This document shows, piece by piece, positions 43,864 to 50,036 of a stretch of 64,000 nucleotides of DNA. Position 1 is the stretch's first letter. The number at the start of each line of letters is the position of its first letter. Source of the DNA: Micromonospora echinospora. GTDB taxonomy: Bacteria > Actinomycetota > Actinomycetes > Mycobacteriales > Micromonosporaceae. The notes beneath the pieces are model-generated. The model worked only from the letters and a program-made list of their open reading frames with translations, was not told the DNA's origin and did not search any database. Location: positions 3,870,001-3,934,000 of the forward strand of contig NZ_JACHJC010000001.1 in NCBI RefSeq assembly GCF_014203425.1. The letters are read 5' to 3'. The translations under genes were made by a program, and so were the position numbers.

Positions 43864-43919
43864 CACCCGCTGCACACGGACCCCGGCACCACGCGGGGCG
43901 GCACACCGAGGGAGCACCC

Positions 43920-44222
43920 ATGGCATTGAACGACGACGACATCCAGAGCAGCGGCGGCAGCGGCCTGGAGGGCCCCGCCGACGGCGGTGCCACCCCGGGT
44001 CAGCACGACGGTGGCGCGGACGGCGGCGCGGAGGGGCCCGCTGACGGCGGCGCGACCCCGGGTCAGCACGACGGTGGCGCGGACGGCGGCGCGGAGGGCC
44101 CCGCTGACGGCGGCGCGACCCCGGGTCAGCACGACGGTGGCGCGGACGGCAGCGCGGAGGGCCCCGCCGACGGCGGCGCGACGCCCGGTCAGCACGACGG
44201 CGGCGCCGACGGCAGCGCCTGA
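43920..44222 (+). CDS. Acidic tandem-repeat peptide (16-aa leader + four 21-aa repeats)
   Basis: 100 aa: MALNDDDIQSSGGSGL followed by four repeats EGPADGGATPGQHDGGADG(G/S)A at nucleotides 43968-44030, 44031-44093, 44094-44156 and 44157-44219, filling the protein to its last residue. No Cys, aromatic, Lys or Arg; one His, one Gln, one Thr and two Pro per unit. Strongly acidic and surely disordered unless it binds metal. GGGAG precedes the ATG. It ends 3 bp before a JmjC hydroxylase gene, so a leader-plus-multicore substrate of that enzyme is the obvious hypothesis; no proof in sequence. Confidence 0.8.
   Translation: MALNDDDIQSSGGSGLEGPADGGATPGQHDGGADGGAEGPADGGATPGQHDGGADGGAEGPADGGATPGQHDGGADGSAEGPADGGATPGQHDGGADGSA
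43968..44219 (+). repeat. Four 63-bp in-frame tandem repeats
   Basis: Exact 63-bp period. Units 1-3 differ at only a few third positions; unit 4 has more synonymous changes (GCCCGGT for CCGGGT-type codons) and the last two units have Ser for Gly at position 20. Differences are mostly synonymous, so the protein repeat is under purifying selection or recent gene conversion. Confidence 0.9.
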
Positions 44223-44225
44223 CAC

Positions 44226-45500
44226 ATGAGCACGCACGTCGACCCGCCGGGTGGCCACGGCCGCCCGGCGGTTCCGCTTTCCGCCACCGAGGCGCTGGCC
44301 CGGTGCGTGGCAGTGGAGCCGGCCAAGTTCGCCGCCGACCACTGGGGGCGCAGCCCGCTGCTGTCCCGCGCCGCGGAGCTGCCCAACGCGTACGGCTTCA
44401 CCGACCTGCTCAGCCCCGCCGACGCCGACGAGCTGCTCAGCCGCCGCGGTCTGCGTACCCCGTTCCTGCGGGTCGCGAAGGACGGCCAGCTGGTGCCGGC
44501 GGCGCGCTACACCGGCGGCGGTGGCGCGGGCGCCGAGATCGGCGACCAGGTCCTCGACGACAAGGTGCTGGCGCTCTACGCCGACGGCGCCACGCTGGTG
44601 TTGCAGGGCCTGCACCGCACCTGGCCGGCGATCGTCGACTTCGCCCGCGACCTGGGCGCCGCGCTGGCCCAGCCGTTGCAGGTGAACGCCTACCTGACCC
44701 CGGCCGGCAGCCAGGGCTTCGCCACCCACTACGACACCCACGACGTGTTCGTGCTCCAGGTCGACGGACGCAAGCACTGGCGCATCCACCCGCCGGTGCT
44801 GGCCGACCCGCTGGAGCGCCAGCCCTGGGGCGGCCGGGCCGACGAGGTCTCCGCCACCGCCGACGGACGCCCCGAGCTGGACGTGGTGCTCGAACCGGGC
44901 GACGCGCTCTACCTGCCGCGCGGCTGGCTGCACAGCGCCCAGGCCCAGGAGTCCAGCTCACTGCACCTGACAGTGGGCATCCGGGCGCTGACCCGGTACA
45001 CGGTGGTCGAGGAACTGCTCGCGCTCGCCGCCGAGGACGCGCGGCTGCGCGCGAGCCTGCCGTTCGGGCTGGACCTGGCCGACCCGGACGCGATCGAGCC
45101 GGAGCTGACCGAGACGGTCGAGGCGCTGCGCGACTGGCTGCTGCGCGCCGACCCGGCGGCGGTGGCCGACCGGCTGCGCGCGCGGGTCTGGCCGGCCGCC
45201 CGGCCGGCGCCGATCCGGCCGCTGGCCCAGGCGCAGGCGCTGGCCCGGCTGAGCGCGGACAGCGAGGTCGCGGTGCGCGGCGGGCTGCGCTGGCAGCTCG
45301 TCCCGGCCGCCGACGGACGGGTGACGCTGCGGATGCCCGACCGGACGCTCACCCTGCCCGGCACCTGCGAGGCGGCGCTGCGCGCCCTGCTCACCGGCGA
45401 GGTGACGAGGGTCGGTGACCTGCCCGGCCTCGACGACGACGCCGACCGCCTGGTGCTGGCCCGCCGCCTCCTCAAGGAGGCGGTCCTCGTCCCCGCCTGA
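44226..45500 (+). CDS. JmjC-domain cupin hydroxylase (ROX/NO66/MINA-like)
   Basis: 424 aa. Fe(II)/2-oxoglutarate JmjC core at about 120-245: NAYLTPAGSQGFATHYDTHDVFVLQVDGRKHWRIH gives H168-x-D170, Lys183 as a likely 2OG contact, and GDALYLPRGWLHSA gives distal H236. C-terminal dimerisation and winged-helix regions (about 250-424) follow, as in bacterial YcfD/RoxA and human NO66/MINA53, which hydroxylate Arg or His of ribosomal proteins. ATG three bases after the repeat-peptide stop. The neighbour suggests a dedicated peptide substrate rather than, or besides, a ribosomal protein. Confidence 0.9.
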   Translation: MSTHVDPPGGHGRPAVPLSATEALARCVAVEPAKFAADHWGRSPLLSRAAELPNAYGFTDLLSPADADELLSRRGLRTPFLRVAKDGQLVPAARYTGGGGAGAEIGDQVLDDKVLALYADGATLVLQGLHRTWPAIVDFARDLGAALAQPLQVNAYLTPAGSQGFATHYDTHDVFVLQVDGRKHWRIHPPVLADPLERQPWGGRADEVSATADGRPELDVVLEPGDALYLPRGWLHSAQAQESSSLHLTVGIRALTRYTVVEELLALAAEDARLRASLPFGLDLADPDAIEPELTETVEALRDWLLRADPAAVADRLRARVWPAARPAPIRPLAQAQALARLSADSEVAVRGGLRWQLVPAADGRVTLRMPDRTLTLPGTCEAALRALLTGEVTRVGDLPGLDDDADRLVLARRLLKEAVLVPA

Positions 45501-45555: not shown

Positions 45556-46227
45556 TCAGCGGGTGTAGGTCACCGTGAGCAGCAGGACGGTCGTGACCAG
45601 GCCGGAGACGGCCACCAGAATCATCGGGCGCGGTGTCAGCACCGCGTGCCGCCGGTCGGCCAGCAGGCGGGCCGGCGCCAGCCCGATCACCGGGCCGAGC
45701 AGCGTCACCACGAGCGCCAGCACCGGCAGGCCCACCGCCAGGTCACCGCTGGAACCGGCCGCGAGGGCCCGCGCCGCCACCCCCAGCGCGTACGCCACCA
45801 GCGCGCCGCCGATCCCGCACGCGACGAGCAGCGGGTTCACCGAACCGGGCAGCTCGCCCGGCGCTCCGGTCCGCTCCAGCAGCTCCCGGACCGCCCGCAG
45901 CAGCGGCACCGGGTCACCGGCGGCGCCGCGAACCGGGCCGGGCGGGTCGCCCAGCCGCCGGGCGCTCATGCCGAGCCGGGCCCGCAACTGCGTCCACAGG
46001 TGAGTGGCCTCGCCGTCGACGCGCTCCACCATCCGGGACGCCTCGGCCACCTCCGCCTCGGCCTGCCGGACCTGCTCGGCCGCCTCGGCCACCGCCCGGT
46101 CGGCGGCGGCCACCTGCTGCGCGTACCAGGTGTGCGCCTCGGCCCGCTGGGCGGACACCCGGGCGGTCAGCTCGGCCAGCCGCCGGATGTGCGCGTGGTA
46201 CGTCTCACTGGTAACCGGTTCGTTCAT
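45556..46227 (-). CDS. Coiled-coil protein with C-terminal membrane helices (FtsK operon gene 4)
   Basis: 223 aa. Residues about 10-75 form a coiled coil (LTARVSAQRAEAHTWYAQQVAAADRAVAEAAEQVRQAEAEVAEASRMVERV); the C-terminal part has three or four membrane segments (SVNPLLVACGIGGALVAYALGVAARAL, VGLPVLALVVTLLGPVIGL, ILVAVSGLVTTVLLLTV). ATG overlaps the FtsK stop (ATGA). Possibly the membrane anchor of the ATPase complex. Family not recognised. Confidence 0.72.
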   Translation of the reverse strand: MNEPVTSETYHAHIRRLAELTARVSAQRAEAHTWYAQQVAAADRAVAEAAEQVRQAEAEVAEASRMVERVDGEATHLWTQLRARLGMSARRLGDPPGPVRGAAGDPVPLLRAVRELLERTGAPGELPGSVNPLLVACGIGGALVAYALGVAARALAAGSSGDLAVGLPVLALVVTLLGPVIGLAPARLLADRRHAVLTPRPMILVAVSGLVTTVLLLTVTYTR

Positions 46228-48896
46228 CGGGAGGGACCATAAGGGATGATCACCTGTCCGGTGCGGTGCACCGCCCGGTCGAAGTAGAGACCGCGCCACG
46301 GCCGGGGATACCAGTCCGGCCCGCCGCTGCCCGGATACAGCGAGGAGCCCAGCTCACCGCCCTGCACGTCGAGCGCCACCCAGGCGCCGATCTGGTCCGT
46401 GCGCGCGCCCGCGCCGCCCAGGTCCACGCGCATCCGGGCCACGCCCCGCCACCACGCCAGCACGTGCGTGCGCCGCTCCGGCCCGTCGTGCAGGATCCGG
46501 CGCAGCTGCTCCAGCCCGGTCCGCGTACCGGCCTTGCCGGCCAGCGCCGCCGCGGCCGCGTCCACCGCGTACAGCAGCAGGAAGTGCGGGGTACGCGACG
46601 CGCCCGGCGCGCCCAGCCCGTCGCCCACCTCGGCCATCAGCTCCGGCACGGTCTCCTCGTCGTACCAGGAGGCGTCCCCGGCCAGATCCTCGTACAGGGC
46701 GCGGGCGGCCGGGTCGGCGTCCGGGTCCAGGCAGGCGATGGAGAAGCGGGCCGCGCCGGGCTGGTACTGCCGGGCCAGCGAGCGGGCGGCGGCGTCCAGC
46801 ACCGCGCACGCCTCGTCCACCCGGGTGCCCAGCACCGCCAGGTTGCGGCCCGGGGCGCGGGGCAGCCGCAGCGACGCCGAACGGGACTGCACGTCGATGA
46901 TCTCGCCGAGCAACGCCACCGGGTTGCGTGGGACGCCCTGCTCGGGCGCGGTCAGCGCGCGGAAGTCCGGCGCGTCGGCCAGCTTCGGGATCGCGTCGCC
47001 GTCGAAGAGCCGGGCCGGCGCGGCGTCCTGCGGGCGCATCCGCCACAGCCGGTGCTGAAGCTCGCTCCACGTCTCCCAGTCGCTCGCCGACGGGATCCGG
47101 GCCACCTCGTTCCCCTCGGCCAGGCCCGACTCGGCGTTGATGACCGCGTGGTGCCGGGGCAGCGACTGCGCCGCGTCGTTGCGCTCGGCCAGGATGCGCA
47201 GCGCCTTCGGCATCGCGATCCGCAGCGTGAACTGGGCGACCAGCGCGGGCCGCCCCCACAGCGCCTCGATGCCGCGCACGTCCTGCGAGGCGAGCACCAG
47301 GTGGATGCCCTGCGACCGGCCCCGCCGGGCCAGGTCCTCCAGCAGGTCGGCGGCCTCGCGGGCGACCACGTCCCGCCCGGCGAGCAGCGCCTGGAACTCG
47401 TCCACCACCGCCACGATGCGCGGCCAGTGCCCGTCCGGGTCCACCGCGCGCAGCTCGGCCAGCTTGGTGACCTCGTGTTTCTTCGCCGCGTCGGCGCGTC
47501 GGCGCAGCTCCTCGGCGAGGAAGCGCAGCAGCGCCAGGCCGAACTCCCGGTCGGTGTTGACGTTGATGCCGACCAGCCGCATGTGCGGCAGCCAGCTCGG
47601 ATCGCGGCGGCCCTGCGCGAACCGGGCGAAGGACACGCCCTCCTTGAAGTCCAGCAGATAGAACTCCAGCTCGGCGGGGGAGTAGCGGGCCGCGAGCGCG
47701 CCGATCCAGGCGAAGATCAGATTGGTCTTGCCGGTGCCGGACGGGCCGCCGATCAACGCGTGCGGCGGGTAGTCGCCGAGCGTGAGCAGCACCTGCCGCC
47801 CGTGCGGGCCCTCGCCGACCGGCGCGCTGAGTCCGTGCGCCGAGTCCTCCCGCCAGTACTCGTCCGGCGGCGGGAGCAGGTCGGTGAAGGGCGTCGGGGG
47901 AGGGCCGGCGGCGACCCGGGAGGCGACAGTACGGCAGGTCTCGGTGACCAGCGCGGGCGGCGGCGGGGCGTCGAGCACGACCGGCAACCCGGCCACCCGG
48001 GCGTCGTCCGGCTCCACCGCGATCCGGACGACCGTCGGGTCGTCGGGCAGCTCGATGCCGCGGACCACCAGATGCACGCCGCACGCCGCGCCGGTGCGTA
48101 CCACCCGGTCGAGCTGGCCGCGCTCGTGCCGGGACAGCTCGTCGCCGCCGAGCAGCACCGCCACCCGCCACGGCTCCGGGCGGCGTCCGGTCGCGGCGGC
48201 CAGCTCGCGCAGCGAGCCGTACTCACCGGCGAGCACCGTGGCGTTGATCCGGCGGATCTGCTCCACCAGGTCGTCCAGCAGCCGGCCCAGGCCACCCGGC
48301 CCGACGAACGTGAGCAGGCCGGCGGTGCCGAGCGGGGCGAACCCGGCCAGACCGCCGCCCAGGTGCTCCGGGTCGTACCCGTACAGCCGCACCGCGCCCG
48401 GGTCGGCGCGGCCGACCGAGCGCAGCAGCAGCGCGGGCACCACAGTGGCCAGCCCGGCACGGTCGCCGCCGGCCAGGTGCGCGTGCCCGGCGTCCAGCAG
48501 CGGGACCAGCGCCGGCACCGGCTCCGCGCCGTCCAGGCGTACCGTGCCCACGCGCAACGCGCCGGGCGGCTCGGCCCGGCCGGCGGGCGTGGCCTGCCAG
48601 CGGTCCCAGGGCGCGGACGCCGCGCCGGGCGCCTCCCGCTGCGCCGCGGCGGCGGCCCGGCGGGCCAGCTCCGCCAGACGGGCGGTGTGCCGGGCGTCGA
48701 TCTCGGCCAGGCGGCGGTCGCGGGCAGTGCCCACCCGGGCGGGCACTGCGGCGGCGGCCCGGCGGGTACGCGCCAGCCGCTCCCGGCTCGCGGTCAGCTC
48801 CGCCTCGGCGGCGGCGAGCCGGGTACGGGTGGCGCCCAGGGCCTCGGAGAGCATCCCCCGGACCCGCGTCACCAGTTGCGTGCGGACGTCAGCCAC
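46224..48896 (-). CDS. FtsK/SpoIIIE-type ATPase with N-terminal coiled coil
   Basis: 890 aa. Residues 1-90 are coiled coil (MLSEALGATRTRLAAAEAELTASRERLART...). An FtsK/SpoIIIE domain has Walker A GGPSGTGKTN (about 379-388) and Walker B RIVAVVDEFQALL (about 487-499), with a sensor-type LVLASQDVRG. The C-terminal third looks like a second, degenerate ATPase domain: NLAVLGTRVDEACAVLDAA in place of a P-loop and HFLLLYAVDAAA in place of Walker B. One active plus degenerate domains recalls EccC of type VII secretion. No membrane helices and no DNA-binding gamma domain. GTG start overlaps the upstream stop. Confidence 0.85.
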   Translation of the reverse strand: MADVRTQLVTRVRGMLSEALGATRTRLAAAEAELTASRERLARTRRAAAAVPARVGTARDRRLAEIDARHTARLAELARRAAAAAQREAPGAASAPWDRWQATPAGRAEPPGALRVGTVRLDGAEPVPALVPLLDAGHAHLAGGDRAGLATVVPALLLRSVGRADPGAVRLYGYDPEHLGGGLAGFAPLGTAGLLTFVGPGGLGRLLDDLVEQIRRINATVLAGEYGSLRELAAATGRRPEPWRVAVLLGGDELSRHERGQLDRVVRTGAACGVHLVVRGIELPDDPTVVRIAVEPDDARVAGLPVVLDAPPPPALVTETCRTVASRVAAGPPPTPFTDLLPPPDEYWREDSAHGLSAPVGEGPHGRQVLLTLGDYPPHALIGGPSGTGKTNLIFAWIGALAARYSPAELEFYLLDFKEGVSFARFAQGRRDPSWLPHMRLVGINVNTDREFGLALLRFLAEELRRRADAAKKHEVTKLAELRAVDPDGHWPRIVAVVDEFQALLAGRDVVAREAADLLEDLARRGRSQGIHLVLASQDVRGIEALWGRPALVAQFTLRIAMPKALRILAERNDAAQSLPRHHAVINAESGLAEGNEVARIPSASDWETWSELQHRLWRMRPQDAAPARLFDGDAIPKLADAPDFRALTAPEQGVPRNPVALLGEIIDVQSRSASLRLPRAPGRNLAVLGTRVDEACAVLDAAARSLARQYQPGAARFSIACLDPDADPAARALYEDLAGDASWYDEETVPELMAEVGDGLGAPGASRTPHFLLLYAVDAAAAALAGKAGTRTGLEQLRRILHDGPERRTHVLAWWRGVARMRVDLGGAGARTDQIGAWVALDVQGGELGSSLYPGSGGPDWYPRPWRGLYFDRAVHRTGQVIIPYGPSR

Positions 48897-49767
48897 GGGA
48901 CGTCTCCCGTTCGTCGGTGTCCTTCGGCAGGTCCCGGCCGAGCCGGTCGAGCAGCACCCCGGTGAGCACGCCGGCGGTGACCGCCGGGTCGGCCGCGTGC
49001 GGCTGCTCCGCGTCGTCGTCGCGGCGCGGCGGGGGCATCCGGCACACCCGGGTCAGCAGCGTGTCCAGCACCGGCCGCGGCAGCCCGGGCAGCAGGTCAC
49101 GGACCCGGGAGTCCAGCGCGCCGCGCAGCCGGGGCAGGTCGTCCGCGCGGGGCGGATGGCCGAGCAGCTCACCGGCCAGCTCGCGCAGCAGCGGCGGGGC
49201 GATCGCGGCCAGCCCCAGCCCGACGTCGGCGTGCGCGGCGCGCAGCTCGCGGTGCAGCCGGTCCCGGTCACCGGAGCGGACCCCGGCGACCACCCGGCGC
49301 AGCAGCTCACGGGAGTCCCCGACGCGCTCCTCCGGCTCGTCCGGCGTCCCCTCCCGGCCGCCGGTCAGCTCCGCCACCCGCACCGCCCACCAGCGCCGTA
49401 CCGCGGGCTGCTCGCCCGGCTCGGGGGTCGCGCCGGGCGCGGGCGGGTCGTCGCCGCGCGGCGTGTCGTGCCGGGGCCGCCGCTCGCCCGGTGGCGGCGG
49501 TGGCGCGCCGTCGGGGGCGAGCCCGATCGCGGCCAGGTACGCGGCGAGCTGCTCCTGCGCCACGCGCAGCGCGTAGCCGGCGGTCTCGGCGTGCTCGGTG
49601 GCCGAGGACAGCTCCGGCACCCCCATCGGGTCGGCCGACTCCTGACGCACCCAGCGCAGCCGCTCCTGCGCCTGGCCGAGCTTCTCCAGCGCGGCGGCGA
49701 GCTGCGCCAGCGGCAGGTCCTCGGTGGCGGCGCGGACCTGCGCGCCGATGTCCTCGACGATGGACAC
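48889..49767 (-). CDS. Hypothetical protein, helical N terminus and Pro-rich linker (FtsK operon gene 2)
   Basis: 292 aa. Residues 1-80 are helical (VRAATEDLPLAQLAAALEKLGQAQERLRWVRQE...ATEHAETAGYALRVAQEQLAAYLAAIGL), then a Pro/Arg/Asp-rich linker (APPPPPGERRPRHDTPRG) and a helical C-terminal domain (about 140-280). I do not recognise the family. GTG 49767 has GAGG 8 nt upstream and lies 8 bp after the small gene's stop; its own stop overlaps the FtsK start (GTGGCTGA). Confidence 0.68.
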   Translation of the reverse strand: MSIVEDIGAQVRAATEDLPLAQLAAALEKLGQAQERLRWVRQESADPMGVPELSSATEHAETAGYALRVAQEQLAAYLAAIGLAPDGAPPPPPGERRPRHDTPRGDDPPAPGATPEPGEQPAVRRWWAVRVAELTGGREGTPDEPEERVGDSRELLRRVVAGVRSGDRDRLHRELRAAHADVGLGLAAIAPPLLRELAGELLGHPPRADDLPRLRGALDSRVRDLLPGLPRPVLDTLLTRVCRMPPPRRDDDAEQPHAADPAVTAGVLTGVLLDRLGRDLPKDTDERETSRG

Positions 49768-49775
49768 GGCCGGCC

Positions 49776-50036
49776 TCAGAGCGTCGCGACGTAGAGCTGT
49801 GCCTGCTCGACCGCGACGAGTGTCGCGGCGAGGCACTCCTCCAGCTCCTGGCTGGCCTGTGTCAGCGAGGCCTGGGCCGCCTCGACCGTCTCGTGGCCGC
49901 TGCCCTCCAGCGCGCCGGCCAGGGTCTGCTGTGCCTCGGCCAGCTTCTCGCCCGCTGCCTGCACCGCTGTCTGGCCGTCACCGATCTGCTGGAGCGCGAC
50001 ATCGATGGCGGCCTTCAGCTCGGCGACGCTCGCCAC
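49776..50036 (-). CDS. WXG100-sized helical-hairpin protein (FtsK operon gene 1)
   Basis: 86 aa, almost wholly helical with a Gly turn in the middle: VAELKAAIDVALQQIGDGQTAVQAAGEKLAEAQQTLAGAL, then EGSGHE, then TVEAAQASLTQASQELEECLAATLVAVEQAQLYVATL. Size and hairpin pattern are those of ESAT-6/WXG100 proteins, but there is no W-x-G at the turn and no C-terminal YxxxD/E. GTG 50036 has AGGAGG 4 nt upstream. Probable partner or substrate of the FtsK-type ATPase. Confidence 0.75.
   Translation of the reverse strand: MASVAELKAAIDVALQQIGDGQTAVQAAGEKLAEAQQTLAGALEGSGHETVEAAQASLTQASQELEECLAATLVAVEQAQLYVATL

Follow-up and report, generated by a model that had tools for sequence, protein, structure and literature searches.

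Organisation of the locus

The window, a stretch of 64,000 nucleotides, belongs to the 7.1 Mb, single-contig genome of Micromonospora echinospora. On its forward strand, a gene for a repeat peptide of 100 amino acids, a putative precursor, ends with a TGA codon (43920..44222) and is followed by the gene of a JmjC 2OG-Fe(II) oxygenase of 424 amino acids (44226..45500). The two are separated by 3 bp (TGA-CAC-ATG) and are read in the same frame. The open reading frames thereby confirm the arrangement on which the original prediction was built, a leader and four repeat units directly in front of a JmjC enzyme. GAGGGAG at 43908..43914 (forward strand) is likely the ribosome-binding site of the peptide gene, as read from the sequence; a promoter or terminator consensus was looked for at the pair and none was found.

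The peptide starts with a 16-residue leader, MALNDDDIQSSGGSGL (43920..43967), which carries a recognition-like DDDI motif that recurs in relatives; AF2 models the leader as ordered only if the C-terminal domain of the JmjC enzyme is present. It continues with four units of 21 residues, all on the forward strand: unit 1, EGPADGGATPGQHDGGADGGA (43968..44030), unit 2 (44031..44093), unit 3 (44094..44156) and unit 4 (44157..44219). The unit follows the pattern EGPADGGATPGQHDGGADG[G/S]A, with a GGA end in units 1 and 2 and a GSA end in units 3 and 4, and the stop codon comes directly after the last residue of unit 4. Tandem Repeats Finder reports a period of 63 with 4.1 copies, 93% matches and a score of 427. 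Summed over the six pairs of the window's four units, 28 synonymous differences stand against 4 non-synonymous ones (pN/pS 0.05), and comparison of the window peptide with 11 relatives gives pN/pS values of 0.03-0.22. Such low ratios indicate purifying selection on the amino acids, beyond the DNA repeat alone; the repeat peptide is selected as a protein and is more than a chance repeat. The number of units in Micromonospora peptides varies from 2 to 6. None of the NCBIfam models matched the peptide at E 1, and none of the Pfam models at E 0.1.

Conservation of the gene pair

GTDB species genomes were scanned for relatives of the JmjC enzyme, of which at least 555 were found, and the best 80 were taken. 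The window's best-matching loci are those of Micromonospora; the genera among the best 80 include Micromonospora, Salinispora, Actinoplanes, Asanoa and Phytohabitans, and further Catellatospora, Modestobacter, Blastococcus, Pseudonocardia and Actinokineospora. A peptide gene or its remnant lies directly upstream of the JmjC gene in all 80 loci. In 75 of them the upstream Asp-rich open reading frame passes a composition filter, which only 3 of 7021 other open reading frames of the same loci pass, and five were judged by eye: L097 has a whole peptide, those of L119 and L120 are frameshifted, and in L076 and L140 a contig end truncates the peptide but leaves its tail visible. The original prediction had named JmjC homologues that regularly lack the repeat gene as what would count against it; in the close clade none were found among these 80 loci, and homologues without the repeat peptide are distant ones only (15 of 74 loci in a second set).

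This second set was collected across the phylum and overlaps the first in part, some contigs being identical. An Asp-rich peptide is present in 58 of its loci, as judged by a laxer filter without control and with L048 and L148 doubtful, and L154 is cut. The 15 distant JmjCs, all at 142 bits or less, are without this type of peptide; one of them, L165, passes the laxer filter with a different peptide. In a tree of the JmjC sequences (72 rows, with L148, L150 and L154 dropped as cut by contig ends) the 25 rows with DGGA-type peptides form, together with the doubtful L048, a single starred clade of 26 rows. There is evidence against a clean split between JmjCs with Asp-rich peptides and other JmjCs. 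The deep branch between them is weak (75/96), the 'other' rows L159, L175 and L177, two of them on very long branches, lie on the Asp-rich side, L175 stands beside L155 (98/88), and the label of the distant Asp-rich type requires 6 changes on the tree. The bit scores of the classes also meet, with 140 bits for L173 (Asp-rich) and 142 bits for L159 (other).

The pair is conserved in the opposite direction as well, when the search starts from the peptide. With a DGGA-type peptide profile, to which 4 of the matched genomes had contributed rows, matches are found in 18 of the 396 phylum genomes; 19/19 matches adjoin a JmjC gene. For the distant-type profile, with rows from 10 of the matched genomes, matches occur in 16/396 genomes, 16 of the 17 beside a JmjC gene and one at a contig start; G117, a row donor of this profile, has no match to it. 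Both searches scored at most 13-14 candidates per genome, so that an orphan peptide may have escaped them. In 41 near relatives, for which all candidates were scored, 28 genomes contain 30 matches, of which three are without JmjC (G003:C9, G010 and G022), all at contig ends. At E 1e-6 the DGGA profile misses G025, G029, G038 and G039, in which the JmjC gene is present and the peptide is visible by eye; G037, with broken JmjC matches, stands outside this count by eye. The repeat gene is often situated at contig ends of draft genomes (G003:C9, G010:C692, G022:C27, L076, L140). Assemblies may break at the repeat, with the consequence that pairs may be undercounted.

Sixteen neighbourhoods were compared beyond the pair, in a table that is rough since the JmjC gene itself escaped the simple gene caller in L125, L133 and L139. 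The JmjC gene is common to 12 other loci. The next most common neighbours, an FtsK-like gene and the gene beside it, are found in 5 of the 16 loci, all of Micromonosporaceae. In the window these two genes occupy 46224-49836 on the reverse strand and code for an FtsK/SpoIIIE-like ATPase (890 amino acids) and a neighbour without Pfam match; they also accompany the pair in Salinispora, Phytohabitans, Paractinoplanes and Pseudosporangium.

An acidic, low-complexity sequence and a linkage known from genes alone would also suit an acidic protein with a structural or metal-binding function, next to which the JmjC gene lies by coincidence or is merely co-transcribed. We consider this explanation very improbable, because peptide-profile matches away from a JmjC gene occur at contig ends only and because other neighbours are common to at most 5 of the 16 loci.

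A wider gene cluster was rejected, as other genes are shared within close synteny only. No third gene, for instance for a protease or a transporter, accompanies the pair outside closely syntenic loci (5 of 16 neighbourhoods at most), which agrees with the earlier remark that neither is adjacent; the product may thus stay intact. A gene for leader removal or export, which is usual but not universal in RiPP clusters, was accordingly not found among the shared neighbours of the 16 loci. Other hallmarks of RiPPs are present: a short precursor gene adjoins a modifying enzyme and is conserved with it as a pair, and the leader motif is kept while core unit and repeat number vary. The description of peptide and JmjC enzyme as a conserved pair with leader and multicore, proposed from the window's sequence, thus extends to its relatives.

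Constant residues of leader and core

Repeat units of 64 loci were compared (209 units, selected for EG at the start and a GG in one of two places). Asp is near-invariant at three positions of the unit (209/209, 204/209 and 204/209), whereas the position of the single His, which had been put forward as the hydroxylation target, holds His in 110 of the 209 units, Gln in 61 and Arg in 21. No His at all is found in 14 of 75 DGGA-type peptides (L131 left out). The final 60 residues are free of His in 23 of 34 distant cores and contain 7 or more Asp in every one of the 34. His as the target was rejected on these grounds. Since Asp is constant across the units and the distant cores, conservation makes it the likely residue modified in the repeats.

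With JmjCs at about 32-45% identity, the leader still resembles L[ST]D[DE][DE]I and the core is Asp-rich. These cores contain DADAADAD, DGDATDGDA or DTTDTD, in which Asp is kept and Gly, Pro and His are replaced. On a plasmid of Streptomyces clavuligerus, a hypothetical protein of 48 amino acids (L208:3772-3918) is encoded immediately upstream of a cupin/JmjC gene, whose match has 39% identity and spans 55% of the query; its leader LEPDEIEV is followed by the Asp-rich half-repeats DNDPSDP and DPDPFDP.

In the DGGA type, Gly-Gly and Ala after Asp are conserved nearly as well as Asp itself, and these residues could equally be target or spacer. The JmjC enzyme might then modify the peptide otherwise, by hydroxylation of Pro, Gly or another residue or by formation of a cross-link or a change of the backbone. 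This reading can point to BipG and PbsQ, JmjC-type hydroxylases of biphenomycin-type RiPPs, of which the passages compared describe BipG as an ornithine hydroxylase and PbsQ as hydroxylating only with arginase present (PMC12707348, PMC12257519). In the distant cores, however, Gly, Ala and Pro give way to Asp, Ser, Thr or Val and Asp stays, and a modification other than Asp hydroxylation appears unlikely to us.

The JmjC enzyme and its C-terminal domain

The enzyme matches JmjC_2 of Pfam (PF08007, E 1.2e-30). Its JmjC domain (residues 151-256; 44676..44993, forward strand) contains the metal ligands H168, D170 and H236, which had been described as intact and are invariant in 20 aligned sequences, those of the window and of 19 relatives. 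The best PDB matches, both by sequence and by fold, are the ribosomal oxygenases (NO66/MINA/YcfD); PF08007, the HxD...H motif and a fold shared over the whole chain assign the enzyme to the JmjC_2/ribosomal oxygenase fold. The kinship to NO66/MINA/YcfD stated in the original prediction is therefore right by sequence and fold, but the substrate is not told by it.

These top matches would also be expected if the enzyme were a ribosomal-protein oxygenase of the NO66/MINA/YcfD type and the acidic peptide its regulator, inhibitor or chaperone and not its substrate. A regulator, however, presumably has no need for a variable number of repeats (2 to 6 units) around a constant residue, and the distribution of JmjC relatives, found at E 1e-10 in at least 62 of 396 phylum genomes (with at most 4 candidates scored per genome), seems patchier than would be expected of a ribosome enzyme. 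We thus hold this assignment to be quite improbable. In contrast to NO66, MINA53 and YcfD (PF08007), the window's JmjC is encoded beside a repeat peptide of its own; structural alignment gives about 28% identity between them, and the evidence for ribosomal substrates concerns NO66, MINA53 and YcfD.

The C-terminal domain (residues 345-424; 45258..45497, forward strand) is RRE-like and a putative site of leader docking. DSSP of the AF2 fusion model described below yields the bbb-aaa topology of the RRE type with one strand above the minimum (E449-452, E459-462, E467-471, E475-480, H481-490, (498-500) and H507-519 in fusion numbering). Comparison of 59 JmjC C-termini with 16 PqqD sequences by hhalign gave a probability of 0.4%, and PF05402 is absent among the Pfam matches of the JmjC protein; an identification of the domain as an RRE at the sequence level failed in this comparison. 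A domain at the corresponding position is also present in NO66 and YcfD, which act on ribosomal substrates, as the fold match reaches the chain end.

AF2 model A3 represents an artificial read-through fusion of peptide and JmjC enzyme and was built from 68 alignment rows, 14 of them fused. Residues 1-10 are modelled with a mean pLDDT of 87 and a strand is formed at residues 9-12, and residues 14-117 have pLDDT values below 50. In a fusion without residues 447-526 (JmjC 345-424) the pLDDT of residues 1-10 is 30 and the strand is gone. In silico, the order of the leader is dependent on the C-terminal domain. Its loss upon removal of the domain points to JmjC residues 345-424 as a putative leader-binding site in the manner of RREs, with a surface that is deduced from the deletion alone.

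Mechanistic model and related systems

We propose, with a probability of roughly 60%, that the two genes form a stand-alone RiPP-like cassette in which a JmjC enzyme of NO66 fold holds the leader by its RRE-like C-terminal domain and oxidises Asp residues of the repeats. The small gene would provide the precursor, with a short acidic leader of the LxDDDI type in front of a core of Asp-rich tandem repeats. The leader would be bound by the winged-helix/RRE-like domain at the C-terminus of the JmjC enzyme, probably as an added beta strand, and the disordered core would be held near the 2OG-Fe(II) site. The enzyme could then work along the repeats and oxidise Asp, most likely to beta-hydroxy-Asp, of which up to 12 may be formed in the window's core. 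The product would be a polyanionic, possibly metal-binding peptide that either remains whole or is processed by a protease whose gene lies elsewhere. We infer this chemistry, with moderate confidence, and the role of the cassette, with the peptide as substrate of the JmjC enzyme and Asp as the modified residue; a metal-binding polyanion as the product is our guess.

Substrates of FIH (factor inhibiting HIF), a JmjC oxygenase, are ankyrin-repeat proteins. A structure shows FIH in complex with an Asp-substrate peptide (2xum, by title), a precedent for Asp chemistry by a JmjC enzyme. Among RiPPs, BipG and PbsQ are precedents for hydroxylases of the JmjC type, and SmaO and PesHI for beta-hydroxylation of Asp by enzymes of other kinds. 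The window's JmjC matches FIH weakly by sequence (E 0.4), and the fold match is confined to the JmjC core (model 129-359). SmaO, PesHI and PflD convert Asp to beta-hydroxy-Asp in RiPP precursor peptides (PMC13097080, PMC13060819). PesHI and PflD are MNIO enzymes, whereas the window's enzyme is a JmjC, and an Asp-repeat multicore such as that of the window peptide is not among the passages compared for these three systems. Like the window pair, in which the substrate is putative, BipG and PbsQ combine a JmjC-type enzyme with a ribosomal precursor peptide. In the passages compared, however, each is one tailoring enzyme of a large cluster (MNIO, B12-rSAM, arginase, peptidase), in contrast to two genes in the window, and the multicore Asp repeat is present in the window only.

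RRE-like folds fused to PF08007 were described by Bregman et al. 2025 (PMC12710340), with fish and algal fusions, and the window's enzyme resembles these proteins in combining the two. One sentence of that paper places bacterial homologues 'in RiPP-like genomic contexts'; bacterial precursor, core and chemistry are not given in its section 6. We found no description of the peptide-JmjC pair in the open-access literature searched, although an account in Xia et al. 2025 or Kim et al. 2025 (JACS) is possible. The string 'DGGADGG' does not occur in the open-access literature searched, and the 2020 RRE-Finder text contains none of the terms JmjC, cupin, dioxygenase and hydroxylase. Within the literature searched, and as far as the passages compared reach, the nearest mention is this one sentence on RiPP-like contexts of RRE-JmjC homologues.

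If the proposed cassette is correct, JmjC enzymes of the ribosomal-oxygenase fold would gain a dedicated, genetically linked substrate, and the role of the C-terminal winged-helix domain would become testable, with leader binding as in RREs. A common RiPP-like class would be defined whose precursor has no match in NCBIfam (E 1) or Pfam (E 0.1), and iterative Asp oxidation along an encoded repeat would offer a handle for hydroxylated polyanionic peptides of chosen length. More tentatively, and with confidence short of even, we envisage a widespread actinobacterial group of minimal two-gene RiPPs, in which the JmjC enzyme brings its own leader-binding domain and makes a poly-(beta-hydroxy-aspartyl) polymer. 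This polymer might remain whole in or on the cell and serve as a buffer of metals (Ca, Fe) or as a polyanion that binds minerals or surfaces, for which leader motif and Asp would be constant and the spacers free.

Distant relatives and other upstream peptides

Distant JmjC relatives also occur on plasmids. They were found in 114 plasmid records, 0 of which cover 80% of the query, and 25 Escherichia plasmid records contain a distant relative at E 1e-10. Upstream of the JmjC genes of L157 and L173, a DNDIT leader precedes a duplicated PTEDDENLDAPGEHS[QK]DTGDE, another type of core. A different short upstream peptide accompanies the distant JmjCs of L165, L167, L172 and L178 (28-36% identity; family code f18, same class); its last letters resemble GGRSDGND in L165, L167 and L172. 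These four loci possibly represent a second JmjC-peptide pairing with another type of precursor.
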